Origin: an uncultured Pedobacter sp.
GTDB taxonomy: Bacteria > Bacteroidota > Bacteroidia > Sphingobacteriales > Sphingobacteriaceae
Assembly (NCBI RefSeq): GCF_946479715.1
Contig: NZ_CAMLHF010000162.1
Span: 1 to 13,033 of the forward strand
Length of the DNA: 13,033 nucleotides
Direction of reading: 5' to 3'
Shown here: positions 172 through 13,033 of the stretch, one piece after another
Layout of the letters: every line of letters starts with the position of its first letter
Position numbering within the stretch: position 1 is the first letter of the stretch
Program-made: the position numbers and the translations under genes
Notes under the pieces: model-generated
The model's input: only the letters and a program-made list of their open reading frames with translations
The model's database searches: none
Told to the model about the DNA's origin: nothing

Positions 172-1494
172 TTATTTACCTTTTATGGTATTGCTTGTCT
201 CTGCATTTTGAAGCGTTGCAGTTGGTTCTGGTTCAGCCAATAATTCGTCAAGCACTTTATTAAATTTCTTCTCATAATCATCGTAATACTTACCTGTTAC
301 AGTGCCAGTATATCCTGTGTAAATTTCTCTCACCTCACCTTTTCTGTCTATGATTATGGTTGTCGGAAAAGCAATGAATTTGTTAATTGCAGGGAGTTTT
401 TGAGCTACCAGCTTTTTATCGGCAAGCCCACCAAAAAGTATGTCATACTTGATATCATATTTATCTCTTAGTTTCCCTAGCGTATATTTAGCATACTCCA
501 AACTGTCTTTCTGTTCAAAACCTATTGCTATGGCTTCTACACCACGCTTTTGATTTTTATTAAACCATGGCGACAAAAACACGGTCTGATCTGTACAGTT
601 AGGGCACCAGGTACCAATAATCTCTACAATTACTACCTTACCTTTATACTTGTCGTCGCTTAGCGAAACAGATTTACCGTTCAAATCAGGAAAAGTAAAG
701 TCAAGCTTTTTATAGCCTTCCTTTAAAAAGGTTAGTTTATAAGGATCAGGCAAATCAGCAACATTATTTTTGGTTGCATCAAATTTGATGTTCTTATAAA
801 TTCCAAAACCCTGCTCTCCGGAAAGGGTTCCATCTTCATTTATTTTTCCTTTAATAATGAAAGGGCTGGGGCCTGTAAAACCCGATAATGCAAATTCATC
901 ACCTTGTACAGTACCTTCTATTTCGCGGCTATCACCAACAACGGTCATTATCACACCGGTGAGTTTATTTCCCGATTGCTTTAATACAGCAATAGAGGCC
1001 GGAACAGCTTCTTTGCTATAAAGCTTAAGTTCCCATTTACCGCTTAAATCTGCTTTGGGTTTCACATCTTTTCCCGGCTCAACAAAGCGATATGCCTTGC
1101 CGTATTCTGCAGTAAAAGGGAGAGCATTTCCTCTAAAATTAGGCACCAGACTACGGTACTCGCCTGTTAGCCTTCCATCGTCTTCTATTTTGGCTACCAA
1201 AGCAGCATCATAAGTGTTCATTTTAACGAATATGGAGTCTTTGCCAATTAGCTGTACGTGGAAATCATCGCGTCGTGTACCATTTAAAAGGGTAAACACT
1301 GCATGCTGAGGATCTTTTCCTTTTAGTTCAAAGTTAAAGGGAACCTGCGATTCGCTCACGGTAAATACACCGCGCCACACGCCTTCTTTAATGAATTTTG
1401 CAGGTTCAGGTTTAGTTCCTGCAAGTGCTGCACCACTCAATAAAATACCTGCCGACAGGCATTTAGCTTTAAATAGATAATCTTTTAAGTTCAT
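172..1494 (-). CDS. TlpA family thiol-disulfide oxidoreductase with an N-terminal beta-rich domain
   Basis: This 440-residue secreted protein has a signal peptide at about residues 1-26. Residues 30-245 form a region rich in beta-type segments with repeated 'LTGxxxxxGD/LSG' patterns. A C-terminal TlpA/AhpC-type thioredoxin fold occupies about residues 260-420. The redox motif is GTWCPNC, with cysteines 297 and 300, and the cis-proline is in AFPTT (Pro377). In the known family such proteins reduce or exchange disulfides in the periplasm; the specific client is unknown. The CPNC motif is intact, so catalysis is plausible. The last 20 residues are a low-complexity tail. The gene is first of a likely two-gene unit with the paralogue at 1-147. 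Upstream, 290 bp separate it from a candidate promoter at 1785-1815, and an operator-like site lies at 1822-1845. Confidence 0.9.
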   Translation of the reverse strand: MNLKDYLFKAKCLSAGILLSGAALAGTKPEPAKFIKEGVWRGVFTVSESQVPFNFELKGKDPQHAVFTLLNGTRRDDFHVQLIGKDSIFVKMNTYDAALVAKIEDDGRLTGEYRSLVPNFRGNALPFTAEYGKAYRFVEPGKDVKPKADLSGKWELKLYSKEAVPASIAVLKQSGNKLTGVIMTVVGDSREIEGTVQGDEFALSGFTGPSPFIIKGKINEDGTLSGEQGFGIYKNIKFDATKNNVADLPDPYKLTFLKEGYKKLDFTFPDLNGKSVSLSDDKYKGKVVIVEIIGTWCPNCTDQTVFLSPWFNKNQKRGVEAIAIGFEQKDSLEYAKYTLGKLRDKYDIKYDILFGGLADKKLVAQKLPAINKFIAFPTTIIIDRKGEVREIYTGYTGTVTGKYYDDYEKKFNKVLDELLAEPEPTATLQNAETSNTIKGK

Positions 1495-2010: not shown

Positions 2011-3147
2011 TTATATAGTTACCGGATTATAAATTGCCGAGAGCCTTTCAACGGTATAATCTATTTCTTCTACGGTGTTATACTTGCTAAACGAAAAGCG
2101 CACCGTATGGCGGGATGGGTCTGCATTAATTGCTTTTAGCACATGCGATGCCGACCCTGTAGAGCAGGCGCTTCCTCCAGACACAGAAATATTGTTCAGG
2201 TCCAGATATCCAAGTAAGTCATCAGCACCTTCATGTTGCGGCAGGCTAACACTTAAAACGGTGTAAAGACTCTTATCCGCATCCGCTGAATTTCCATTAA
2301 ACTGTACCCCTTCAATTTCGGCTTTCAATTTAAAGATCATCCTGTCTTTTAGTTTTTGTATATACCTTGCATGCTCATCAATATCCCGGTAAGCAATTTC
2401 CAAAGCTTTTGCCAGTCCAATAATTCCATGAATATTTTCTGTTCCTGCACGTAGTCTGCGTTCCTGAGATCCGCCATGAATCAGCTTCGAAAGCTGGATC
2501 CCATTTTTACAGTAAATAAATCCTACGCCTTTTGGACCATGAAATTTGTGTGCCGATGCAGCTACAAAGTGTGCCTTCAATTTTGACAGATCATGGCGAT
2601 AGTGACCAATGGTCTGAACTGTATCTGAATGAAAAATAGCGTTGCTACTACAACAGAGCTCACCAATTAATTCAATGTCGTTTAAATTTCCGATTTCATT
2701 ATTGGCATGCATTACTGATACCAATGAGCGTTCTTTATTTTTTAATAATTGCTGTACATGCTCAATATCAAGATTTCCCTTTTTATCAGTGTTTATAAAG
2801 CTTAGGGTTATCTCGCCACGCTTTTTAAGTGCTTCAAGCGTATGCAGAACTGCATGATGCTCAAATGGAGTAGTAATTACATGTTTAACCTGTTCAGAAT
2901 ATACACTCGATAATATTGCTGTATTGTCGGCCTCGGTACCGCCACTTGTAAAGACAATTTCATTGGGGGCAGCATTTAGAAGATCTGCGATGGTATGTCT
3001 GGCGTTTTCAATAGCGCTTTTTACAATTCTTCCATCTTCATGATGTGATGATGGATTGCCAAAATACTCCAGCAGGTAAGGAATAATTTCCTTATAAACC
3101 TCTTTGTCCAATTGGGTGGTTGCAGCATTGTCTAGATAAATTCTCAT
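2011..3147 (-). CDS. Cysteine desulfurase (NifS/IscS-like, PLP-dependent class V aminotransferase)
   Basis: This 378-residue cytoplasmic enzyme should convert L-cysteine to L-alanine, passing sulfane sulfur via an enzyme persulfide to Fe-S cluster or thio-cofactor assembly. The family landmarks are present: YLDNAATT at residues 4-11, SGGTEADN at 68-75, the catalytic-type histidine in EHHAV (His97), the PLP-contacting aspartate in HSDTVQ (Asp174), the Schiff-base lysine in SAHKFHGPKG (Lys201), the RAGTEN motif at 233-238, and the active-site cysteine in SGGSACSTGS (Cys328). I chose the ATG at 3147 over an in-frame ATG at 3189. The enzyme homology starts there, a strong GAGGAGG lies 5 bases before it, and the extra 14 residues (ending KKEEEE) are just the translated ribosome-binding region. 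It stands apart from other suf/isc genes. A SAM-I riboswitch in its leader suggests control by S-adenosylmethionine, and an operator overlaps its promoter. Confidence 0.93.
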   Translation of the reverse strand: MRIYLDNAATTQLDKEVYKEIIPYLLEYFGNPSSHHEDGRIVKSAIENARHTIADLLNAAPNEIVFTSGGTEADNTAILSSVYSEQVKHVITTPFEHHAVLHTLEALKKRGEITLSFINTDKKGNLDIEHVQQLLKNKERSLVSVMHANNEIGNLNDIELIGELCCSSNAIFHSDTVQTIGHYRHDLSKLKAHFVAASAHKFHGPKGVGFIYCKNGIQLSKLIHGGSQERRLRAGTENIHGIIGLAKALEIAYRDIDEHARYIQKLKDRMIFKLKAEIEGVQFNGNSADADKSLYTVLSVSLPQHEGADDLLGYLDLNNISVSGGSACSTGSASHVLKAINADPSRHTVRFSFSKYNTVEEIDYTVERLSAIYNPVTI

Positions 3148-3152
3148 TTCTT

Positions 3153-3159
3153 CCTCCTC
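3153..3159 (-). promoter_or_regulatory. Strong Shine-Dalgarno sequence of the cysteine desulfurase
   Basis: GAGGAGG on the minus strand lies 5 bases before the ATG at 3147. Such a strong site is uncommon in Bacteroidota. Its AAGAGG portion (3161-3156) can pair with CCUCUU at 3217-3212, and that segment can alternatively pair with AAGAG at 3227-3223, just after the riboswitch. This gives a possible translational switch, which is an inference. Confidence 0.6.
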
Positions 3160-3232
3160 TTTTTTAATTAATCGTTTATAATTAATCATTCTGTGATGTC
3201 AGCTTATGCAGAAGAGGTACAACTCTTTACCA

Positions 3233-3343
3233 TTTTATCTTTCTCCACATTTGTGGAGCAGGAATTAGCACCTTTTACAAGCAAAGCTGGTACAGGTTGC
3301 TAAGACGTCGTAGGGCCTTTCCCTCTGTCTTTCTGGATAAGTA
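3233..3343 (-). ncRNA. SAM-I (S-box) riboswitch
   Basis: The minus strand carries the S-box core in the correct order: CTTATCCAGAAAGAC, then AGAGGG, GGCCCT, ACGACGTCTTAGCAACC, and finally AAGGTGCTAATTCCTGC. P1 is UUAUC (3340-3336) with GAUAA (3239-3235). P2 includes AAGAC with GUCUU. P3 is a hairpin with an AGC/GCU tip inside ACCU...AGGU. P4 is the palindrome CTCCACA/TGTGGAG at 3243-3258. In the known family S-adenosylmethionine binding turns off sulfur and methionine genes. The conserved AUGA appears here as ACGA. The element starts about 20 nt after the predicted transcription start and precedes the cysteine desulfurase, with about 86 nt between it and the ATG. No U-rich terminator hairpin is visible there, so control at translation is more likely than at transcription termination. 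Confidence 0.93.
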
Positions 3344-3368
3344 AATTACAAGAACAACTATTGAGTCG

Positions 3369-3376
3369 CAAATGTA
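3369..3376 (-). promoter_or_regulatory. -7 promoter element of the cysteine desulfurase transcript
   Basis: TACATTTG on the minus strand is a perfect match to the Bacteroidota -7 consensus TAnnTTTG. It predicts a start near 3363, giving a leader of about 215 nt that contains the whole riboswitch. No TTTG or TTG occurs at the usual -33 distance; that place is taken by the inverted repeat at 3378-3410. Confidence 0.65.
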
Positions 3377-3377
3377 T

Positions 3378-3410
3378 AAATAAAAACTACTAATTTACTA
3401 GACTTTATTA
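3378..3410. promoter_or_regulatory. Operator-like inverted repeat at the desulfurase promoter
   Basis: The arm at 3378-3393 (AAATAAAAACTACTAA) matches the left arm of the 3619-3651 site at 15 of 16 bases. The other arm (3395-3410) matches its partner at 12 of 16, with the core TTAnTAG kept. The centre (3394) lies about 31 bp before the predicted transcription start, covering the -33 region. The same geometry is seen at the divergent promoter. Confidence 0.65.
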
Positions 3411-3506
3411 AAATAAATTTTAATGCCTGCTAATTGGCTTGTTTTACCACAAAAAAGCAAGAAAAAACAACTTTTATAAAGTACTGATAATTAGAACATT
3501 ATTAGG

Positions 3507-3618: not shown

Positions 3619-3651
3619 AAATAAATACTACTAAATTAGTAGTATTTATTT
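3619..3651. promoter_or_regulatory. Perfect 16-bp inverted repeat, operator of the hydroxylase-family gene
   Basis: AAATAAATACTACTAA and TTAGTAGTATTTATTT are exact reverse complements around one central A. The right arm ends where the -7 element begins, so a bound protein would cover the -33 region and block or position RNA polymerase. The symmetric CTACTAA/TTAGTAG core is reminiscent of operators of BlaI/MecI-type dimeric repressors, but no such regulator is encoded here, so the protein is unknown. Confidence 0.75.
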
Positions 3652-3676: not shown

Positions 3677-4900
3677 ATGATTAGTCATTTTAACTATTTA
3701 GCCTTCGCTATTCCGGCTTTTTTTGTGTTTCTATTTTTAGAGTATGGCATCGCTGTAAAGCTAAAAAAGACACATTTGTTCAAATATGAAAGTTCCATTT
3801 CCAACCTCAGCATAGGCATTGCCGAAAGACTTCTTAATCTCTTTATATCAGCTAGTTTCTACAGCTTATTCTTTTGGATTTATACCAACTATGCTCTTTT
3901 TAGTATCCCAAATACCTGGTGGGTATGGATATTATTAATCCTGGTTACAGATCTGGTTTGGTACTGGTATCACCGGCTGGGTCATGAGGTAAACATCCTA
4001 TGGGCAGCTCATATTGTACATCATCAAAGCGAAGAATTTAATTTTACCGTATCAGCACGGATCACTGTTTTTCAAGCTCTTATAAGAAATCTTTTTTGGT
4101 GCGTAATACCACTGCTGGGATTTCATCCTACCATGGTTATCGCTATTCTGGTTGTTCATGGTGCCTACTCTTTTTTTACACATACTCAACTGATCAGAAA
4201 TTTGGGCTGGCTCGAATATATTCTGGTTACACCTTCAATCCATGGCGTTCATCATGCCAGCGATCAAAAATATCTGGATAAAAACTATGGAGATGTATTC
4301 GTGTTCTGGGATAAAATCTTTGGGACATTCCAAAGGGAAGAAGAACCACCTAAGTATGGCCTTACCCATCCAGTAAAGAGTTACAGCTTCTTGTGGCAGC
4401 ACTTCCATTACTACCTGGAGATTTTAGCTGCGTGTAAAAAAGTGCCTGACATAAGGAATAAATTAAAAATCGTCTTCGGTCATCCCTCCAGACTGGATCA
4501 GGAAATCAGGCCAACACTCGAAAAGAAATACTTGCAGCACAAGGCCTCCTCTTCTTATCGTTTTAAATTCAGAGGCTATTTAAACATACAAATAATTATC
4601 AGTGTAATTCTGCTAACACTAATTACCGGTTTATATCCTTTCTTTGAAACCGCCGATAAGCTGTTTATTGTAGGCTTTATTCTGCTTACACTAGTCAATT
4701 GCGGCGCCTTAATGGAACAACGGAAATGGATTTACAATCTTGAGTATACCCGTTTGTTAACGTTATTTACCTATATTTTTTGGAAGTCGGATCATATGGA
4801 ACTGTTACTGCCATTAGTAGTGCTGCTGTTCATTTCAGAACAGCTATTTCGCATTAGTCATTTGTATCGCCATTATGTGCTTAGGTATGATAAAGTTTAA
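3677..4900 (+). CDS. Sterol desaturase / fatty acid hydroxylase superfamily membrane protein
   Basis: This 407-residue integral membrane protein has the eight-histidine di-iron signature of the family: HRLGH (His99, His103), HIVHH (His112, His115, His116), a histidine in FFTHT (His169), and HGVHH (His189, His192, His193) followed by DKNYGD. Family members insert oxygen into, or desaturate, lipid chains; relatives include alkylglycerol monooxygenase, which cleaves ether lipids. Hydrophobic segments lie at about residues 5-22, 50-72, 80-98 and 140-165, with further ones at 302-322, 329-345 and 374-392 after the catalytic core. The C-terminal membrane extension resembles the alkylglycerol monooxygenase-like subgroup more than short desaturases. 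The substrate cannot be read from sequence. The gene stands alone and diverges from the cysteine desulfurase, sharing its operator. Its 3' end is 13 bp from the convergent permease gene. Confidence 0.9.
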   Translation: MISHFNYLAFAIPAFFVFLFLEYGIAVKLKKTHLFKYESSISNLSIGIAERLLNLFISASFYSLFFWIYTNYALFSIPNTWWVWILLILVTDLVWYWYHRLGHEVNILWAAHIVHHQSEEFNFTVSARITVFQALIRNLFWCVIPLLGFHPTMVIAILVVHGAYSFFTHTQLIRNLGWLEYILVTPSIHGVHHASDQKYLDKNYGDVFVFWDKIFGTFQREEEPPKYGLTHPVKSYSFLWQHFHYYLEILAACKKVPDIRNKLKIVFGHPSRLDQEIRPTLEKKYLQHKASSSYRFKFRGYLNIQIIISVILLTLITGLYPFFETADKLFIVGFILLTLVNCGALMEQRKWIYNLEYTRLLTLFTYIFWKSDHMELLLPLVVLLFISEQLFRISHLYRHYVLRYDKV

Positions 4901-4913
4901 CTTATTTAAGAAC

Positions 4914-7286
4914 CTATTCATACTTCAAAGCATCAACCGCATTTGCCTTTGCAACTTTAACGGTTTGAAAGCTCACTGTAATAATTGCAATAAATACAGA
5001 CAAGAATAAAGCAATTAAAAACGGCCAGGCAGTCATGGCAACCTTATAATCATATTTCTGAAGCCACCTTACCGCAATGATGTAAGCAGCAGGAATAGCA
5101 ATCATATTAGACAGAATAACCAGTTTTATAAAATCCTTGTTTAATAGCACAAGAATACTTTTCAAATCGGCACCAAGAACCTTCCTGATACTGATCTCTT
5201 TGCTTCTCTGTTCTGCAATATATAAAGCAAGACCTAGCAAGCCTAAACAAGAGATAAAAATTGCAAAACAACCAAACAGGTTAGATAGCACGCTGAGCAA
5301 TCGCTCTGTTTTTAGCTTCTGCTGCATACCCTGGTTAACGAACTGAAGATCTGCCGGATAAGAGGGATTAAGTTGAAGACTAATGTCTTTGATAGACTGA
5401 ACTGATTTGCTTAGTGGCTGATCTGGATTAAGACGAAGCAGTAATACTTTGCTTTGAGCGATGTTGTAATAAAATACGGTAGGTTTTGACTTTGCACCCA
5501 GTTGTTCGTTCATATAATCTTTAACAACACCAATTACATTTAGCGATTGATCGCCCCAGGTAATCTTAGCACCTACCGGATTTTTAAGCCCCATTGTTCT
5601 CACGGCACTTTCATTTAGCAGTAATGATGTTGCTGTATCAGCAACAAATTTTGGTGAGAAGTCCCTTCCCATCACCATAGTAGTCCCTATCGTTTTTACA
5701 AAATCGAAGCCTGTACTTCGATAATCTATAATAGAATTATCATTTGCAGTCTTACCTGGCCAGCTAATGTCTCCAGTTATTGTGCCTCCCTGAGTAAATG
5801 AGCTTGCAAATTCTGTTGCAGAAACAATAGCTCCGGTATTTTTAAGCTCCGCCTTAAAGATTTCCAGTTTCTGCGGCTTTAACCACTCACCTTCAAGGTC
5901 CAGTTGCACCAGGTTATTCTGGTTAAATCCTAATGGCTTATTCTTTATGAATTGGATTTGGGAATAGATCACAATAGCACAAACGATCATACAAATTGAG
6001 ATGGTAAACTGTACCACAACTAGTATTTTACGCATTGGCAATGAGGATTTACCTATCCCAGTAAAGCCTTTTAATACTTTTACAGGTGTAAAGGATGACA
6101 AATAAAACGCGGGATAACTCCCTGCAAGTACACCTGTGAATAAGATTAGCGATATCAATGTAATCCATGTGTAGGGTGAATTGTAATTGATTTGAATAGA
6201 GATATCCAGCAGATTGTTAAAATAAGGCAACACTCCCTCTAGCAGTACAAATGCAATCAAAATACCAATTAATGAAAGCACAAGTGATTCCAATATAAAC
6301 TGTCCAATCAGCGTTTTTCTGGAAGCACCAAGCGCCTTACGAACCCCTACTTCTCTTGCACGTTTTTCTGACCGCGCGGTAGAAAGGTTCATATAATTAA
6401 TACAAGCGATCAACAAAACACAGAACGCCAAAAATATAAATAGTCTTACCTGATCAATCCTTCCTCCAGCAGGTTTACCGTTCTCAAAATGATCATAAAG
6501 ATGGTATTTGCCAAAGGGGAAAAGAAAAGCCTGGAGTGTGGTCTCCTTATCATTTTTCTTGATCAGTTGCCTTACTGCAGCATCAGTAGTCTCGAGATTA
6601 CCTTTATCTTTTAACTTGAATAAAGTAAAACAGGTAATGCTTCCCCAACCATTGTCTTTCTCTCCGGGATGCTCCTGCTCAAAAAATGACCAGGGTTGTA
6701 GGGCTTCGAATTGATGGGTCATATTCTTTGGCAGATCTTCCACTACCGCAGATACCTTCAATATCTTACTATTATCCCATTTTACACTGCTGCCTAAAAC
6801 GTTCACACTTCCAAATAACCTCTTAGCCGCTGAGGCGGTAAGTAAAACCGAATTGGGTTCGCTTAAAGCTGTTTCGGGGTTTCCCTGAATAAACTTGTAA
6901 TCAAATATCTTCAAAAACCCAGGATCAACATTTAGGGTATTCAACTTAAAATTGTTATTGGCAGTACCAAATAATTTCGTTTTCTCACCCATAGCTATCC
7001 TGCTGGCTGTTTCTACCGAGGGCAAGCTAACCAAAGCAGCACCTGCAAGCTTATTTGGGGTTGCGTCTGTTGTTAAAAGTTTCCCATTTACATTTAAGGT
7101 AAGTTTAGCAGCGTATATCCGATCTATATCTTTAAATTGTTTATCGTAGCTCCATTCGTAACCCACATACATCAGGAGCATTAAACAACAGGTCATGCCA
7201 ATGGCTAATCCTCCAATATTGATCAGAGAAAAACCTTTATTTTTCCAAAGGTTTCTTAAAGCTATTTTAAAGTTGATTAAAAACAT
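4914..7286 (-). CDS. MacB/FtsX-family ABC transporter permease
   Basis: This 790-residue inner-membrane protein has two FtsX-type halves. The start MFLINFKIALRNLWKNKGFS and the first membrane segment (about 20-42) are typical. An extracytoplasmic MacB core-like domain (about 45-280) is followed by membrane segments near 281-300, 331-350, 374-394 and 419-441. A second periplasmic domain (about 445-665) is followed by segments near 669-690, 722-739 and 754-773. The cytoplasmic coupling motif occurs twice: EKRAREVGVRKALGAS (307-322) and EQRSKEISIRKVLGAD (692-707). Such permeases work with a MacB-type ATPase in efflux or in mechanical signalling across the envelope. No ATPase gene is adjacent, which is common for these large Bacteroidota paralogues, so its cargo is unknown. 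The gene is flanked by a possible promoter at 7313-7320 and is independent of the locus to its right, which ends in a terminator. Confidence 0.9.
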   Translation of the reverse strand: MFLINFKIALRNLWKNKGFSLINIGGLAIGMTCCLMLLMYVGYEWSYDKQFKDIDRIYAAKLTLNVNGKLLTTDATPNKLAGAALVSLPSVETASRIAMGEKTKLFGTANNNFKLNTLNVDPGFLKIFDYKFIQGNPETALSEPNSVLLTASAAKRLFGSVNVLGSSVKWDNSKILKVSAVVEDLPKNMTHQFEALQPWSFFEQEHPGEKDNGWGSITCFTLFKLKDKGNLETTDAAVRQLIKKNDKETTLQAFLFPFGKYHLYDHFENGKPAGGRIDQVRLFIFLAFCVLLIACINYMNLSTARSEKRAREVGVRKALGASRKTLIGQFILESLVLSLIGILIAFVLLEGVLPYFNNLLDISIQINYNSPYTWITLISLILFTGVLAGSYPAFYLSSFTPVKVLKGFTGIGKSSLPMRKILVVVQFTISICMIVCAIVIYSQIQFIKNKPLGFNQNNLVQLDLEGEWLKPQKLEIFKAELKNTGAIVSATEFASSFTQGGTITGDISWPGKTANDNSIIDYRSTGFDFVKTIGTTMVMGRDFSPKFVADTATSLLLNESAVRTMGLKNPVGAKITWGDQSLNVIGVVKDYMNEQLGAKSKPTVFYYNIAQSKVLLLRLNPDQPLSKSVQSIKDISLQLNPSYPADLQFVNQGMQQKLKTERLLSVLSNLFGCFAIFISCLGLLGLALYIAEQRSKEISIRKVLGADLKSILVLLNKDFIKLVILSNMIAIPAAYIIAVRWLQKYDYKVAMTAWPFLIALFLSVFIAIITVSFQTVKVAKANAVDALKYE

Positions 7287-7312
7287 ATTCCGGTTTTTTT
7301 CATCTCTTACGC

Positions 7313-7320
7313 CAAAGATA
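7313..7320 (-). promoter_or_regulatory. Candidate -7 element for the permease gene
   Basis: TATCTTTG on the minus strand fits TAnnTTTG exactly and lies 26 bp before the ATG at 7286. A clear TTTG at the -33 position is not present, so the call is tentative. Confidence 0.4.
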
Positions 7321-7397
7321 TGCCATTCTCAGAAACAGCGCCATACACCTAAATATCAAACATTTATATTTATGCCGACAATTTATTGTTCATTTCC

Positions 7398-7423
7398 GTA
7401 CAATCTATGTACATAAATGTACA
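7398..7423. promoter_or_regulatory. Three phased GTACA boxes including a TGTACA palindrome
   Basis: TGTACATAAATGTACA (7408-7423) is two copies of TGTACA, each self-complementary, separated by TAAA. A further GTACA starts at 7398, so the boxes start at 7398, 7409 and 7419, about one helical turn apart. The site lies between the Sus-type terminator and the permease gene and is likely an operator for the latter. The regulator is unknown. Confidence 0.5.
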
Positions 7424-7433
7424 GTTAGGTTTT

Positions 7434-7474
7434 AAATAAGAAAAGCGGCTCAGGAAGCCAAAGCCCTCGCCGCT
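7434..7474 (-). terminator. Intrinsic terminator of the SusC/SusD/DUF3823 operon
   Basis: On the minus strand AGCGGC (7474-7469) pairs with GCCGCT (7449-7444), with further internal pairing (AGG/CCT), followed by TTTTCTTATTT. It begins about 20 bp after the stop codon of the DUF3823 gene. Confidence 0.75.
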
Positions 7475-7494
7475 AAACTAACTAACCTAATAAA

Positions 7495-8199
7495 TTATGG
7501 CGCTACGGTTATCTCTTTTACAGTGGTATAATTGTACTTTTTGAAATTATCATTTACCCTTACACCTACCCTCACGTAGTAAGTAGTAGCATATTTCATT
7601 GGTGCGTTTGTGGTAATTGTAACCTCGGTATTCTCATTTGGGATAGCAGTTATCAGACCATTTGCAGGATCGAAATTATTGTTACCTACATATTTTGTAG
7701 TTGAAACGAACAACCTGTAATCTGCAACGGTCGGTTTGGTTTGTCCGGCTGGCGCCTCATTTCTGTTAAACTTAAATTTAGCAGAGATCTTTTTGTCGGC
7801 TGTAACTACCAGACCGCCAACCCATTCTACAACTACATAAGGTAATACATGAAAATCGTGTGTTGTTGTGCCCTTGATGTCAATTTCCTCTGCTGTTACC
7901 GGATAAAAGGGTCCCTCAATTGGGCTAATGCGATATTTGCCAGCAAACAATTTGTTGTTTACATAACTACCATCCTGTTTAATATTTAAAAACATGGGAG
8001 TTGGTGTACTGCTCCAGCTCAGTTCTTCCATTCTGATTCTGGTGTTCCCCTGGCCTTGTTCAGCTTGCAGACCCTGTCCTTTATCGTCAAGGATTGTTCC
8101 TTGCAATACTGCCGAAGGGGCCTCATAATCATCAATTTTACAGGAATGCAATGCTGCCACTCCTGCAAAAAACAATAATATAAATAATATCTTTTTCAT
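7495..8199 (-). CDS. DUF3823 domain lipoprotein (SusE-position accessory protein)
   Basis: This 234-residue lipoprotein begins MKKILFILLFFAGVAALHSC, with the lipobox cysteine at position 20. KIDDYE follows, an acidic cluster of the kind that directs Bacteroidota lipoproteins to the cell surface. An N-terminal carboxypeptidase-regulatory-like beta domain (about 27-118, with LQGTILDDKGQGL and DGSYVNNKLFAGKY) and a C-terminal beta domain (about 125-234, with YYVRVGVRVND) match the DUF3823 layout as I know it. Such proteins are encoded last in Sus-type operons and probably sit beside SusC/SusD on the surface, perhaps binding the same ligand. It follows the SusD gene by 18 bp and is closed by the terminator at 7434-7474. 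Confidence 0.85.
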   Translation of the reverse strand: MKKILFILLFFAGVAALHSCKIDDYEAPSAVLQGTILDDKGQGLQAEQGQGNTRIRMEELSWSSTPTPMFLNIKQDGSYVNNKLFAGKYRISPIEGPFYPVTAEEIDIKGTTTHDFHVLPYVVVEWVGGLVVTADKKISAKFKFNRNEAPAGQTKPTVADYRLFVSTTKYVGNNNFDPANGLITAIPNENTEVTITTNAPMKYATTYYVRVGVRVNDNFKKYNYTTVKEITVAP

Positions 8200-8217
8200 A
8201 CCTGATTTCTGTAATGG

Positions 8218-10248
8218 TTAATACTGTTCGTTTTGTTTTAGCTTAGGATTTGCTGCAATCTCAGCCCCTGGAATAGCTTCGTAATAATATTTGGTTGCCA
8301 CGGTGAATCTTGAATTGCGCTCTTCCAGTCTGGCATCAAAAATATACTTGCCCTTTACATAATCCGGTGCTTCAGGAACCGATCCTTTAGCAAACAGGAA
8401 GGGATTAAGCTTTCTCCATATCCTTGAATTAACTTCAAGATCGGCAGTTCTCCACCTCAGCATATCCCACCAAAGCTTATGCTCAAAAGCAAGTTCCTTT
8501 CTGCGCTCTATCCTTACAAGCTGCAAGCCTCTTGTTGGCGCCAGCACATATGACCCAACACCGGTGCCCGGTGCAAGTGCTGCGCCTGACGAAAGCTCTC
8601 CCTGGTCTGTTAACAATACCGCTCCCGCTCGTTCGCGAATGGCATTGATCTGCACAAAGGCGTCGTTTTGAAGGTCTACTCCATCTACATTATTTACACC
8701 ATGCTGTGCAAGTTCCAACGCCGCTTCGGCACGGTTTAGCAATACTTCTGCATACCTGATTTCAATCCACGATTGGGTAGATTCATGGAGCTTGGTAAGG
8801 GCAGCCGAAACATTAGGGTTTAGATATTTACGCCCATGAAAACCGGTAATGGTTGCATTATTTGAAGAAGTTGGGCCATCCAAACCAGTGGGATTAATAG
8901 ATTGGCCTGTAGACAATACGATTGGCACCTGACTATTCCATGTTCCTGCCTGTTTTACGTTCGGATTATAAAATGGATTGGAAGAATAAGCTGCGGTTGA
9001 GCCCTCTGGCACTAACTTTTGTATTGGCGTAGCCGGATCTATACTTTCGATAAATGTTCCGCGGCGAAGATCGGTACGTAGTCCTTTAAAAGCCTGGCCC
9101 GGCAATAAAACTGTGCCTCTTAACCTTGGTTCACAATTTTCAAAAAGCTGCTCTACATAATCATATACGATATAGGTTCCATCAGGCTTAGTCGTTTGTA
9201 GCTCACCACGTGAATTCTTTGGCAGTCCATCAAAAAGCTCAACATAATCCAAAGTAGGATTAAAACGATCGCCATAAGTTGAAGTCATGTGTGGCGGAGA
9301 ATAAACTGCGTCAAAACTATGTACATTTTCTACAAAGGAGTAACCTTTAGAGAAGATCGTTTCGGGACTCTCAGTGTCCAGAAAAAGTGCGGCGTAATTA
9401 TTTGCAGAAGCAATTTTATCTGTGGCCGACCACGTTTTTTTATAAAGGGAGTACTTACCCTCTATCATTTTTGCAGCCTGAAAGCTTAATTTAAAGTAAT
9501 CGTTGGCCTTTGCCCCCGGAATACCATTAAGCATTACTCCATCAACAACATACTGTGTGCCATATCTGGCCTTTGACCCTGCAAAAAGCGCAACACGCGA
9601 TTTAAATGCCGCAGCAATGTTTTTATTTACACGTCCCTTTTGCTCGCTTGCCTCGTTCATATTTGTAATGGCATAATCAAGATCTGCGAGTATAAAATCA
9701 TACACTTCCTGCTCACTGCTTCGCGGAATCTGCAATTCTTCAACATTAGCATTTAAAGCCTGAACCTGACTTGTAATAGGTACGCCTCCGTAACGTTTTA
9801 CTAAAGCAAAATAAGTAAAGGCACGAATAAAACGTGCTTCAGCTATCCATTTATCAACTTTGGGCTGTGTTAATGATGCGGCATAGGCCGGTAAATTTTC
9901 TATCAGATAGTTGGAATAGCGAATAACCTGATAACCGCTTTTCCAATATCCTCTGGCAGGATTTACAAAACCTCCGTTGTTGCGGTTAGCATTTTCTCCG
10001 GTATTTAACATGGGCAAGGCGATCTGGTTCCAGGTATTAAACCCTTCAGTACCATCGCCGGCACTATATTTAAAATCCTCAATAGGCATGCGGCTATAAA
10101 GAGCGGCCATATAGGCCTGCATTCCCGCATCTGTGAACAGGTCCTTATCCTGTACAATATTTACAGGGGCAATGTCCAGTTTATTACAAGCGCATACAGC
10201 TCCAAAAAGAAGCATAAATGCTATATATTTTAATTGTTTCATAATCAT
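8218..10248 (-). CDS. SusD/RagB family outer-membrane nutrient-binding lipoprotein
   Basis: This 676-residue surface lipoprotein has a signal peptide ending VCAC; Cys21 is the likeliest lipidated residue, though Cys19 is possible. The sequence after it (NKLDIAPVNIVQDKDLFTD) is the usual SusD start. The helical TPR-type scaffold and a conserved RAFTYFALVKRYGGVPI segment follow. The C-terminal signature ERRKELAFEHKLWWDMLRW lies at residues 581-599, and the protein ends NPKLKQNEQY, as SusD proteins often do. It should form the lid on the SusC transporter and capture the substrate. At 676 residues it is longer than the common size of about 500-600. It begins 15 bp after the SusC stop codon, so the genes are co-transcribed. 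A start at the second ATG (10242, MKQLKY) is equally plausible. The ligand is unknown. Confidence 0.93.
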   Translation of the reverse strand: MIMKQLKYIAFMLLFGAVCACNKLDIAPVNIVQDKDLFTDAGMQAYMAALYSRMPIEDFKYSAGDGTEGFNTWNQIALPMLNTGENANRNNGGFVNPARGYWKSGYQVIRYSNYLIENLPAYAASLTQPKVDKWIAEARFIRAFTYFALVKRYGGVPITSQVQALNANVEELQIPRSSEQEVYDFILADLDYAITNMNEASEQKGRVNKNIAAAFKSRVALFAGSKARYGTQYVVDGVMLNGIPGAKANDYFKLSFQAAKMIEGKYSLYKKTWSATDKIASANNYAALFLDTESPETIFSKGYSFVENVHSFDAVYSPPHMTSTYGDRFNPTLDYVELFDGLPKNSRGELQTTKPDGTYIVYDYVEQLFENCEPRLRGTVLLPGQAFKGLRTDLRRGTFIESIDPATPIQKLVPEGSTAAYSSNPFYNPNVKQAGTWNSQVPIVLSTGQSINPTGLDGPTSSNNATITGFHGRKYLNPNVSAALTKLHESTQSWIEIRYAEVLLNRAEAALELAQHGVNNVDGVDLQNDAFVQINAIRERAGAVLLTDQGELSSGAALAPGTGVGSYVLAPTRGLQLVRIERRKELAFEHKLWWDMLRWRTADLEVNSRIWRKLNPFLFAKGSVPEAPDYVKGKYIFDARLEERNSRFTVATKYYYEAIPGAEIAANPKLKQNEQY

Positions 10249-10263
10249 TCGTCTGGATCGTTA

Positions 10264-13033
10264 TTAAAAGCTAATGCTTGTTCCGAAATTAATTGTACGG
10301 CTGATTGGATAGATATATCCATAAAGTTCTGAAGGACGCTCGGGGTCTAATCCTCTTATCTTGGTAATGGTAAGCAGGTTGTATCCGTTGGCATATACGC
10401 GCAATCCCTGTATTCCTATTTTTGTAAGTATTCTTTTAGGAAGTGAATAACCGAGCTCAGCACTCTTTAAACGCATGTAAGCACCATTTTGAATTGCCCT
10501 TCGTGAATTGTCGTTAATAACTGTCCCGGTATAAGCATAATATCCTTGTACCCATTTATTAGAGGGATCATAAGGGTCTGCCTTGGGGTCAACAGGGTGC
10601 CATCTATCCATAAACATATCCAACGCGTTTCCATCAAAGCCCAATGGCTCTCTAAAGGCTTCAGGATAGGAAACATAAGACATCGCCCCGCCCTGGAAAA
10701 GCAGGTTCAGATCAAAACCCTTGTAATCGAAACCAAGGTTAAGCCCAAAATTTAGCAGTGGATAGTTATGCCTGGCATCGTTTCCATCAGCACTGGTGCT
10801 GTTTGGATTAATAGCAGTAGCAACAGGATAACGGTCAAGATCATCAAAAGTTCCATCGCCATTCCAGTCTTCATAAATGTAATCACCCGGAAGCGTACCT
10901 CGACCGGTAAACTGGTTATAATTGGCAATCTGCTCAAATGATTGAAACTGTCCTACATACCCAAAGCCAAACCATACATCATTATAGCGGTTAAGTTTGT
11001 TGTTTCTCCAGTTTTCCTGTGAATTTCCGGCACGTCCAAGTTCTTCATAAATAATTTTAGTGCGTGTTAAAGATACATTTCCACTGATGTTATAGCCCAG
11101 TTCTCCAAATCTATTTCTGTGACTTAATGCAAGTTCAAGTCCGCGAGTTTCATCACTATTCAGGTTTTCCTGTGGCATATTTGCACCGAATGATCCGGGT
11201 ACAGTTACCAAACGGTTACCTAAAAGTCCATCCCGGCGGCGCTTAAATGCATCAAAAGTAATCCCCAATTTGCCTTTCCATAACTCAGCATCTAATCCGA
11301 TATTAGTTGTTTTAACCTCCACCCATGTCAGATCAGGGTTTGGCACAGCTCTAAAACCAACTGAGTTAACAAAGCCGCCATCAAACATATAACCACCACC
11401 AAGGGCTTCTCTATTTCCGTTAAATGGATAATCATAGCCCGAAAGGAATTGATACCTTACATTTCCGTCATCACCCATAATACCATAAGACGCCCTGACT
11501 TTCAGGTTATCAATAAATGACAGTGATGAATTATTTTTCATAAAAGATTCTTCAGATATGCGCCATCCAATTGAAGCGCCCGGAAAGAACCCAAATTGTT
11601 TCTTATCAGAAAACCTTGAGGAACCATCATAACGAAAGCTAAATTCGGCAAGGTATTTACCTGAAAAATCATAGTTTAACCTTCCAACTACAGCTCTGGT
11701 TGCAGTTTCAGATACACCATCAATATTGGTGTTTGCCACCTGACCTAATGCTTTTCCGGCAAATAGATATTCAACAGGTAAGGCAAGGTCTCGTTGTGCA
11801 AAAAAGTTGTCGGCACTCGAAGTACCTTCTTCGTAAAGCACTAAGGCGTTTATGTTATGTTTCTTTATGCTTTTTACATAATTCAACGAGAGCTGCAATA
11901 ATGAATTGGGTGTTGTACTGTACCTTCTAAGTAACTGGTCGGGTCCATTCTTATTATAGGCTGTATAAGAATTGCTGGCTGCGTTATAATCATAAACGTT
12001 ATACCCTTTTCTATAATCCTTAAAGTTGTTGTTTCTTGCATCGTACGAGAACATTCCCCTTGCGGTTAACCCATCAAGGTATGGAACCTGATAATCTAAT
12101 GAAAACTGGCTCTGTAACCAGCTGTTCTGGTCTTTTTGATAGCCTGACAGGTCACTGTCTGAATTTGCTCCTGGATGTTCAAACACTGGCTTATACAGAT
12201 AATCAGGATTATTATTTGCATAATAGGTTTCGTTGGGTTGTGCTCTCCATAATTGAGAAAACAGTTGCCATGAAGGAACTTTAGGGTTCATTTTATTCTC
12301 TAAAATACCGTTCAGTTTTAAAGAGGCTTTTAAACGATTAGAGATCTGGGCGTTTAAGTTAGAGCGCAGATTATATCTATCGTATTTTAAGGAGTTACTT
12401 TTCCAGATTCCCTCTTGCCTGGCATAACCCAGGTTAATAAAATAATCTATTTTATTATCACCTGAACTGCCGCTGGCACTAAGGTTTTGCTGGAACTGAG
12501 GAGCAAAATCACGCATTGTCATATCGTACCAGTTGGTGCCTGCTTTTGTTCCGTTACGATAAGGGGCAAAATCTTCATCGTTATACGTTATTACAGGTCC
12601 ATCAACCCGGTGCATGGTCTTCTCGTTCATAAGGGTGAAACGGTCAATTACACCTACTGGCTCCGGCAATCCGATTGGTGTTTGCTGACCATAATAAGCA
12701 GCATAAGTAATCTCTGGTTTACCGGATTTCCCTTTTTTGGTGGTTACCAGTACAACACCATTAGCAGCCCTTACTCCGTACACCGCAGCAGCTGCATCCT
12801 TAAGAACTGAAATACTCTCGATCTCGTTAGGATCAAGACGAGTAATATTATCGCGCGGTACTCCATCAATAATAATTAGTGGGTTACCAAAACCCCTTAT
12901 ATCAAATTGATTGGTAAAAACACCAGGTTCTGATGTTCTTTGTACAACACGAAGGCCCGGAACTTTACCTGTTAGCATGTTCTGCACATTCTGTGTTTTG
13001 GTGGTAGAAATTTCCGCATTGGAAACAGAGGCA
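10264..13033 (-). CDS. SusC/RagA family TonB-dependent outer-membrane transporter (5' end outside the window)
   Basis: 922 complete codons are visible and the frame stays open to the window edge, so the true start lies beyond 13033. The visible protein begins ASVSNAEISTTKTQNVQNML, which is inside the plug domain. Plug motifs follow: GKVPGLRV, DIRGFGNPLIIIDGVPRDN (with IIIDGVPRDN at 12847-12876), and VLKDAAAAVYGVRAANGVV. The rest is a beta-barrel with aromatic-rich strands and ends ISRTINFGTSISF, with the terminal phenylalanine expected for outer-membrane insertion. The signal peptide, carboxypeptidase-like domain and TonB box are not in the window. It pairs with the SusD lipoprotein to import large substrates using TonB energy. 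No anti-sigma factor or glycoside hydrolase is visible. Confidence 0.95.
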   Translation of the reverse strand, partial: ASVSNAEISTTKTQNVQNMLTGKVPGLRVVQRTSEPGVFTNQFDIRGFGNPLIIIDGVPRDNITRLDPNEIESISVLKDAAAAVYGVRAANGVVLVTTKKGKSGKPEITYAAYYGQQTPIGLPEPVGVIDRFTLMNEKTMHRVDGPVITYNDEDFAPYRNGTKAGTNWYDMTMRDFAPQFQQNLSASGSSGDNKIDYFINLGYARQEGIWKSNSLKYDRYNLRSNLNAQISNRLKASLKLNGILENKMNPKVPSWQLFSQLWRAQPNETYYANNNPDYLYKPVFEHPGANSDSDLSGYQKDQNSWLQSQFSLDYQVPYLDGLTARGMFSYDARNNNFKDYRKGYNVYDYNAASNSYTAYNKNGPDQLLRRYSTTPNSLLQLSLNYVKSIKKHNINALVLYEEGTSSADNFFAQRDLALPVEYLFAGKALGQVANTNIDGVSETATRAVVGRLNYDFSGKYLAEFSFRYDGSSRFSDKKQFGFFPGASIGWRISEESFMKNNSSLSFIDNLKVRASYGIMGDDGNVRYQFLSGYDYPFNGNREALGGGYMFDGGFVNSVGFRAVPNPDLTWVEVKTTNIGLDAELWKGKLGITFDAFKRRRDGLLGNRLVTVPGSFGANMPQENLNSDETRGLELALSHRNRFGELGYNISGNVSLTRTKIIYEELGRAGNSQENWRNNKLNRYNDVWFGFGYVGQFQSFEQIANYNQFTGRGTLPGDYIYEDWNGDGTFDDLDRYPVATAINPNSTSADGNDARHNYPLLNFGLNLGFDYKGFDLNLLFQGGAMSYVSYPEAFREPLGFDGNALDMFMDRWHPVDPKADPYDPSNKWVQGYYAYTGTVINDNSRRAIQNGAYMRLKSAELGYSLPKRILTKIGIQGLRVYANGYNLLTITKIRGLDPERPSELYGYIYPISRTINFGTSISF

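Follow-up and report, generated by a model that had tools for sequence, protein, structure and literature searches.

We found that a SAM-I (S-box) riboswitch aptamer stands in front of a cysteine desulfurase gene on the minus strand of the 13,033-nucleotide stretch of Pedobacter DNA analysed here (the window), and that relatives share this pairing; the riboswitch and its link to the desulfurase are near certain. The joint explanation that we favour, and consider reasonably probable, is that the riboswitch turns off translation of a second, apparently non-housekeeping desulfurase which would supply sulfur to O-acetylhomoserine sulfhydrylase (MetY). The computations presented below established the aptamer, a promoter motif, the conserved link to the gene, the catalytic residues of the enzyme and the complementarity of an anti-P1 element across leaders.

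3232..3343, minus strand: SAM-I (S-box) riboswitch aptamer, RF00162 (Rfam score of 79.8 bits and pair counts on 32 aptamers).

Scanning the whole window with cmscan at curated thresholds, we matched a single Rfam family, RF00162 (SAM). The match extends from 3343 to 3232 on the minus strand, covers model positions 1-108 of 108 and scores 79.8 bits (gathering score 44.4; E 7.8e-18), which confirmed the original prediction that this leader is a SAM-I riboswitch. The S-box core strings that had been listed were all found in the window aptamer in the order given, and the proposed P1, P3 and P4 pairings are contained in the covariance-model alignment, in which P1-P4 are all present. We then counted pairing over 27 pairs, including two pseudoknot pairs, in 32 aligned SAM aptamers from the window and related genomes. 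With the nested pairs taken from the same alignment on which they were counted, 95.9% of cells were paired and 15 of the 27 pairs had changed on both sides; none of 500 shuffles had as high a share of paired cells or covariation score as the aptamers, and the number of further pair types in this alignment was not above that of shuffles (445 of 500). The two pseudoknot pairs, which join the P2 loop to J3/4, were formed in 95.3% of cells, so that the set to which the window aptamer belongs has the four-helix core with its P2-loop/J3-4 pseudoknot. The reported change of the conserved AUGA to ACGA is real: the position is U in 25, C in five and A in two of the 32 aptamers. Since the other four C-bearing aptamers (L004, L042, L059 and L063) lie upstream of genes with metH-like N-termini, the U-to-C exchange seems to be natural variation. 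The window aptamer is predicted to bind SAM.

2011..3147, minus strand: cysteine desulfurase, 378 aa, NifS/IscS-like, of a SAM-riboswitch-linked subfamily (Pfam Aminotran_5, E 5.6e-80).
172..1494, minus strand: TlpA-like redoxin (AhpC-TSA/Redoxin), the following codirectional gene, separated by a 516-nt gap.

The open reading frame of the desulfurase was listed with a start at 3189; the start common to relatives is the ATG at 3147, and we adopted it because the 99% identical protein of G001 and the alignment of relatives begin there and AGAGGAGG lies 5 nt ahead. G001 is the nearest genome compared, and its leader and that of the window are near copies. The protein carries a PF00266 Aminotran_5 domain, and its best NCBIfam model is the NifS equivalog TIGR03402, at 387.5 bits under a cut-off of 530.75. 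As it also falls under the cut-offs of the IscS and DndA equivalogs, we refer to it as NifS/IscS-like and not as NifS. K201, H97 and C328, which we take to have catalytic roles in cysteine desulfurase, are invariant in all 23 linked proteins aligned (G001 copy left out), and the window protein can be aligned with the solved cysteine desulfurase 9wep. With an Aminotran_5 domain and the catalytic Lys and Cys it shows the features of the class-V aminotransferase fold and is predicted to be a cysteine desulfurase. The original prediction had described the next gene as a stand-alone NifS/IscS-like desulfurase. The desulfurase is indeed the gene that comes next on this strand, but it stands alone only in part, for in the window and in several relatives it is followed by TlpA-like, SusC/SusD or peroxiredoxin genes with the same orientation.

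Following the earlier proposal to survey homologous desulfurases in relatives, we found, after removal of duplicates, the same leader in 24 cases, all of them belonging to one protein clade, with 46-104 nt between the end of the aptamer and the desulfurase ATG. Within the genus, probably Pedobacter or a near neighbour of it, aptamer and desulfurase are adjacent in at least five of 23 genomes (G001, G009, G010, G014 and G018), and four further genomes of the genus (G029, G032, G034 and G035) have the pairing. When 151 genomes of the family, probably the Sphingobacteriaceae, were searched with a profile, 15 had a desulfurase scoring 571 bits or higher, the next score being 546 bits. The high-scoring linked gene thus appeared in only 15 of 151 genomes, which counts against our explanation; the 15 fall under four genus codes. 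The aptamer was present at all 15 of these loci, although two of the 15 genomes, G001 and G035, had themselves given rows of the linked-set profile or near copies of them. No aptamer was found at the next 15 loci examined (546 bits or less). In Pedobacter sp. BAL39 (L131), also of the Sphingobacteriaceae, a linked desulfurase of the same clade has an aptamer that Rfam scores at 87.5 bits. A tree of 119 desulfurases, a quick LG+G4 reconstruction with SH-aLRT values only, places all 24 linked proteins together on one side of a branch supported at SH-aLRT 98; 30 of 80 named loci were left out of this tree, and L138 was dropped from it for want of a full open reading frame. Searching the 80 named loci with our own model R1 gave clear matches at L131, L154 and L157 and a weak one at L165 (20.6 bits). 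The flanks searched of 29 other desulfurase loci (L006-L034) contained no aptamer, and none was found at the 24 new loci from a class-wide search of 345 genomes, including the high-scoring L233 and L234 of another family. Two Dyadobacter species have an aptamer (Rfam 50.5 and 49.3 bits) followed by a TlpA-like gene, a desulfurase outside the linked clade, SusC and SusD, with domains checked in L154 only. That the pairing is kept in relatives suggests that the enzyme contributes to making methionine at times of shortage.

3368..3376, minus strand: TACATTTGC, Bacteroidota-type -7 promoter element (TANNTTTG), identified by motif and starting 33 nt upstream of the aptamer.

In all 24 leaders, the motif TANNTTTG, presumably the Bacteroidota -7 element, begins 23-36 nt 5' of the aptamer, with a chance expectation of 8.9% per 75 nt in mononucleotide shuffles, and TANNTTTGC at 3376-3368 is the sole occurrence in the 13-kb window. 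Because the motif recurs in every leader and TANNTTTGC is unique in the window, the transcript of the desulfurase most likely begins with the aptamer region. As far as can be told from sequence, it therefore sits in the 5' leader of its target, the promoter element being upstream and the start codon 84 nt downstream. A transcript start downstream of 3233, named at the outset as evidence that would count against the riboswitch, is unsupported, given that the predicted promoter TANNTTTGC lies upstream of the aptamer. No sigma-70-type promoter was found at 3100-3450. Between the promoter of the desulfurase and a fatty acid hydroxylase gene (3677-4900), we observed a perfect palindrome, TAAATACTACTAAATTAGTAGTATTTA, at 3622-3648, which is perhaps an operator. 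Imperfect palindromes resembling TAAATACTACTAAATTAGTAGTATTTA occur between the promoter elements of some leaders and, by eye, before the TlpA gene of the window; operator-like palindromes between promoter elements reached p<=0.05 individually in four of 24 leaders, with a combined p of 0.015. Farther upstream, at 4914-12987, the window holds SusC, SusD and DUF3823 genes (7495-12987) and an ADOP-type duplicated permease (4914-7286), all on the same strand; nothing connects these genes with the riboswitch as far as we could see.

3332..3341, minus strand: 5' strand of P1 with J1/2 (CUUAUCCAGA), the proposed switching strand, which pairs with the P1 3' strand or with anti-P1 at 3212-3203.
3203..3212, minus strand: anti-P1 element UCUGCAUAAG, complementary to 3341-3332 with one central mismatch.
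3210..3217, minus strand: anti-Shine-Dalgarno CCUCUUCU, overlapping anti-P1 and forming an 8-pair helix with 3160-3153.
3153..3160, minus strand: Shine-Dalgarno-like AGAGGAGG, 5 nt ahead of the start codon, recognised by sequence and paired with 3217-3210 in the fold.

The linker between aptamer and gene contains a segment whose complementarity to the 5' strand of P1 extends past P1 into J1/2. The energy of the duplex between the 5' strand and the linker reached p<=0.05 for 17 of the 24 leaders (Fisher p 2.5e-20), and a set of 14 representatives with identities under 70% gave a Fisher p of 6.1e-13; as the leaders are related, these p-values are overstated. The control values were 0.96 for the region upstream of the aptamer and 0.086 for the reversed linker, and the complementarity of the window leader taken by itself was not better than that of shuffles (p 0.13). 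The commonest form of anti-P1, UCUGNAUAAG, occurs exactly in eight and with at most one mismatch in 13 of the 24 leaders, the rest being complementary with other letters. Across leaders, anti-P1 complementarity thus provides an expression platform that is mutually exclusive with P1. It is not a general property of SAM leaders, however, since p<=0.05 was reached in seven of ten desulfurase, six of 15 SusC and one of 17 metH leaders (Fisher 0.0036), in none of the metY (0/10), metX-like (0/3), DUF4833 (0/4), TlpA (0/5), M28 (0/2), Dyadobacter (0/2) and other (0/4) leaders, and in the one leader without a gene (1/1).

In the linker of the window, both the MFE and the centroid fold place the Shine-Dalgarno in the 8-pair helix, and the fold as a whole has a z of -1.63, with 13 of 200 shuffles as good. 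Blocking anti-P1 raised the predicted accessibility of the start region above that of control blocks in only 15 of 24 leaders (Wilcoxon p 0.079). When the whole leader of the window was folded without constraint, the Shine-Dalgarno stayed paired, implying that the ON state would depend on kinetics or some other aid. These two results, and the p of 0.13 for the window leader by itself, speak against control at the ribosome site. No intrinsic terminator-like hairpin with a T run was detected at 3100-3450. In view of the overlap between anti-P1 and the anti-Shine-Dalgarno and of the missing terminator, translational OFF control is the natural reading, and the sequence makes such a switch likely; its direction and the step at the ribosome site are predictions. 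Sections of PMC2258182 report SAM-I riboswitches in Bacteroidetes and describe the antisequestor logic that we apply here.

In the mechanism that we propose, the transcript would begin just 5' of the aptamer. With plentiful SAM, the aptamer would bind its ligand and P1 would form, leaving UCUGCAUAAG free, so that CCUCUUCU could pair with the Shine-Dalgarno and translation would be off. Under SAM shortage, UCUGCAUAAG would instead be engaged in a duplex with the 5' strand of P1, the anti-Shine-Dalgarno would be drawn off and the desulfurase would be made. The enzyme would release cysteine sulfur as persulfide or sulfide, which MetY would use for the synthesis of homocysteine and, from this, of methionine and SAM.

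Two other readings concern the RNA itself. The aptamer might be a relic, or might bind another ligand, with the desulfurase gene not regulated by it; ACGA in place of AUGA would fit such a loss, but the score of 79.8 bits, the intact core motifs and pseudoknot, the occurrence of ACGA upstream of the four metH-like genes and the conservation of the aptamer with the desulfurase gene in 24 leaders all speak against it, and we regard it as highly improbable. The switch might also act by transcription attenuation, Rho or RNA decay and not by hiding the ribosome site. Bacteroidota often initiate translation without a strong Shine-Dalgarno, which together with an accessibility gain in only 15 of 24 leaders (p 0.079) lends this possibility some weight; it is nonetheless improbable, considering the missing terminator-like hairpin, the short distance of merely 46-104 nt from aptamer to start codon and the conserved anti-P1 complementarity, and translational control remains our preferred reading.

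The aptamers of the genus offer a view of what else may be under SAM control. We tallied 59 of the 77 aptamers of G001-G023 by the first downstream gene (18 were left out), with classes assigned by N-terminal patterns: 15 precede SusC/TonB receptors, 13 metH, ten metY, five the desulfurase, five TlpA-like genes (one of them 'other' by pattern), four DUF4833, three metX-like and two M28 peptidase genes, and two are unassigned. Of the representatives checked, metH and metY scored over and metX-like below the NCBIfam cut-off. That this aptamer class also precedes metH, metY, metX-like, SusC and TlpA-like genes suggests a role in providing sulfur for methionine. The idea that SAM level is linked to sulfur mobilisation from cysteine, put forward in the original prediction, is thereby favoured by both the conserved pairing and the methionine and import genes that share the aptamer, as far as sequence comparison can indicate.

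The genes behind the desulfurase differ among genomes: TlpA-like genes in the window, G001, G009, G034 and G147, SusC-SusD in G164, G110 and G125, peroxiredoxin in G169 and G200, and tRNA-Cys in G141 and G182. The TlpA-like protein of the window is 78% identical to that encoded at L077 542-1852 (G011), where the TlpA gene has a diverged SAM aptamer to itself, and 55% identical to the Dyadobacter TlpA-like protein, and its gene possibly belongs to the same regulon. A SAM aptamer of its own was sought and dismissed, as no Rfam match appeared at 1400-2100 up to an E of 1. Similarly, G164 has behind its desulfurase a SusC that shares 69% identity with a G001 SusC having its own SAM aptamer. Such similar functions under SAM control in differing arrangements favour sulfur acquisition for methionine. 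We tentatively extend this to a SAM-repressed regulon for scavenging of organosulfur, consisting of SusC/SusD, M28, TlpA-like and desulfurase genes and feeding MetY, to which Dyadobacter would have come separately, with one aptamer before TlpA-desulfurase-SusC-SusD. At low SAM, importers, M28 peptidase, redoxins and desulfurase would be turned on together, and imported cysteine-bearing compounds would be stripped of their sulfur for direct sulfhydrylation by MetY.

Several further arrangements were observed around these genes. The aptamers before TlpA-like genes are diverged SAM-type aptamers of 53.7-56.2 bits (L077 2103-2006, L078 3078-3175, L080 3098-3195, L081 2541-2637 and L083 2498-2594) and possibly represent a SAM-I variant; in the two aligned, L077 and L081, a P3 pair is changed from C-G to U-A and J3/4 is altered, with a pseudoknot in shifted register still possible by eye. 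A run of TlpA, TlpA, YceI and di-haem cytochrome c peroxidase/MauG genes was seen at L068 1-4119, L216 735-5077 and L217 4328-8869, domains being checked in L068 and the other two recognised by N-terminal likeness; it has its own SAM aptamer in G009 and G013 and lies behind the SAM-linked desulfurase in G001. At L232 1771-2682 (G144), a PALP-family (cysteine synthase-like) gene lies in the same direction just upstream of aptamer and desulfurase. A tRNA-Cys gene is located 3 nt before a SAM aptamer leading to a DUF4833-type gene at L076 2829-2900, L077 2868-2939, L078 2169-2098 and L086 773-702.

Considering what the sulfur is for, we asked whether the linked gene is found where sulfate assimilation is missing, and this explanation was rejected: PF03460 NIR/SIR-family proteins, a domain not specific in that it covers sulfite and nitrite reductases, and CysD (TIGR02039) scored over curated cut-offs in all 49 genomes, 22 linked and 27 with no link seen. 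Lack of sulfate assimilation therefore does not explain the distribution of the gene. The presence of CysD throughout also lowers our confidence in both MetY supply and the scavenging regulon and raises it in a further alternative, namely that riboswitch and target are the same but the sulfur released goes to Fe-S cluster assembly or tRNA thiolation and not to methionine. NifS/IscS-type desulfurases usually serve these pathways, the sulfate assimilation genes point to another source of sulfide, and in two linked species a tRNA-Cys gene lies 9 and 11 nt past the desulfurase stop (L229 3528-3599 and L230 4560-4489). On the other hand, no IscU, SufE or SufU-like neighbour was recognised by eye in the N-termini of the open reading frame lists, and G001 has a paralogue (L075 3064-4212) of the same NifS/IscS-like class, 58% identical to the window-type linked desulfurase, which lies outside the linked clade and differs in having no SAM aptamer in the flanks searched. 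The 29 other desulfurase loci are likewise free of the aptamer, and metH, metY, metX-like genes and importers are under it. We thus consider service to Fe-S clusters or tRNA rather unlikely, and the use of the sulfur for methionine our best inference.

Cysteine desulfurases are usually associated with the supply of Fe-S clusters and thiolated cofactors. That a subfamily spread over four genus codes within one family is kept under a SAM riboswitch points to a desulfurase that may work to provide sulfur for methionine, and gives a testable function to a gene otherwise named NifS- or IscS-like. It also sketches a sulfur-uptake regulon responsive to SAM, with TonB/SusCD systems among its members. 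We recognised no report of a SAM riboswitch on a cysteine desulfurase in the openly licensed literature, mostly judged from titles. The name csd, which appears below, denotes a different desulfurase group. The words desulfurase, iscS and nifS do not occur in the main text of Sun et al. 2013 (PMC3766115). A desulfurase as target of a SAM riboswitch therefore appears to be unreported, and it is an unusual, conserved target of a riboswitch that is itself canonical.

Related control has been described by other means. According to passages of PMC4239095, MetJ controls csd in Vibrionales, likewise a methionine/SAM-responsive control of a cysteine desulfurase gene; there, however, a DNA-binding repressor of Proteobacteria acts, whereas the window has an RNA switch and a NifS/IscS-like enzyme. 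In Streptococcus pneumoniae, passages of PMC5359408 describe the CmhR-activated metB-csd, which also includes a named cysteine desulfurase and is induced by methionine lack, but the regulator is a protein activator and the introduction of that paper treats Csd as acting on cystathionine. The iscS of C. perfringens is, in an excerpt of PMC2940859, induced by cysteine lack without an S-box. Compared with the SAM-I riboswitches of RF00162, the window aptamer is alike in its full-length match, P1-P4, pseudoknot and predicted P1-based switching and carries a U-to-C exchange in AUGA, as do some metH aptamers; the usual targets of these riboswitches are methionine and SAM genes, whereas here the target is a cysteine desulfurase.
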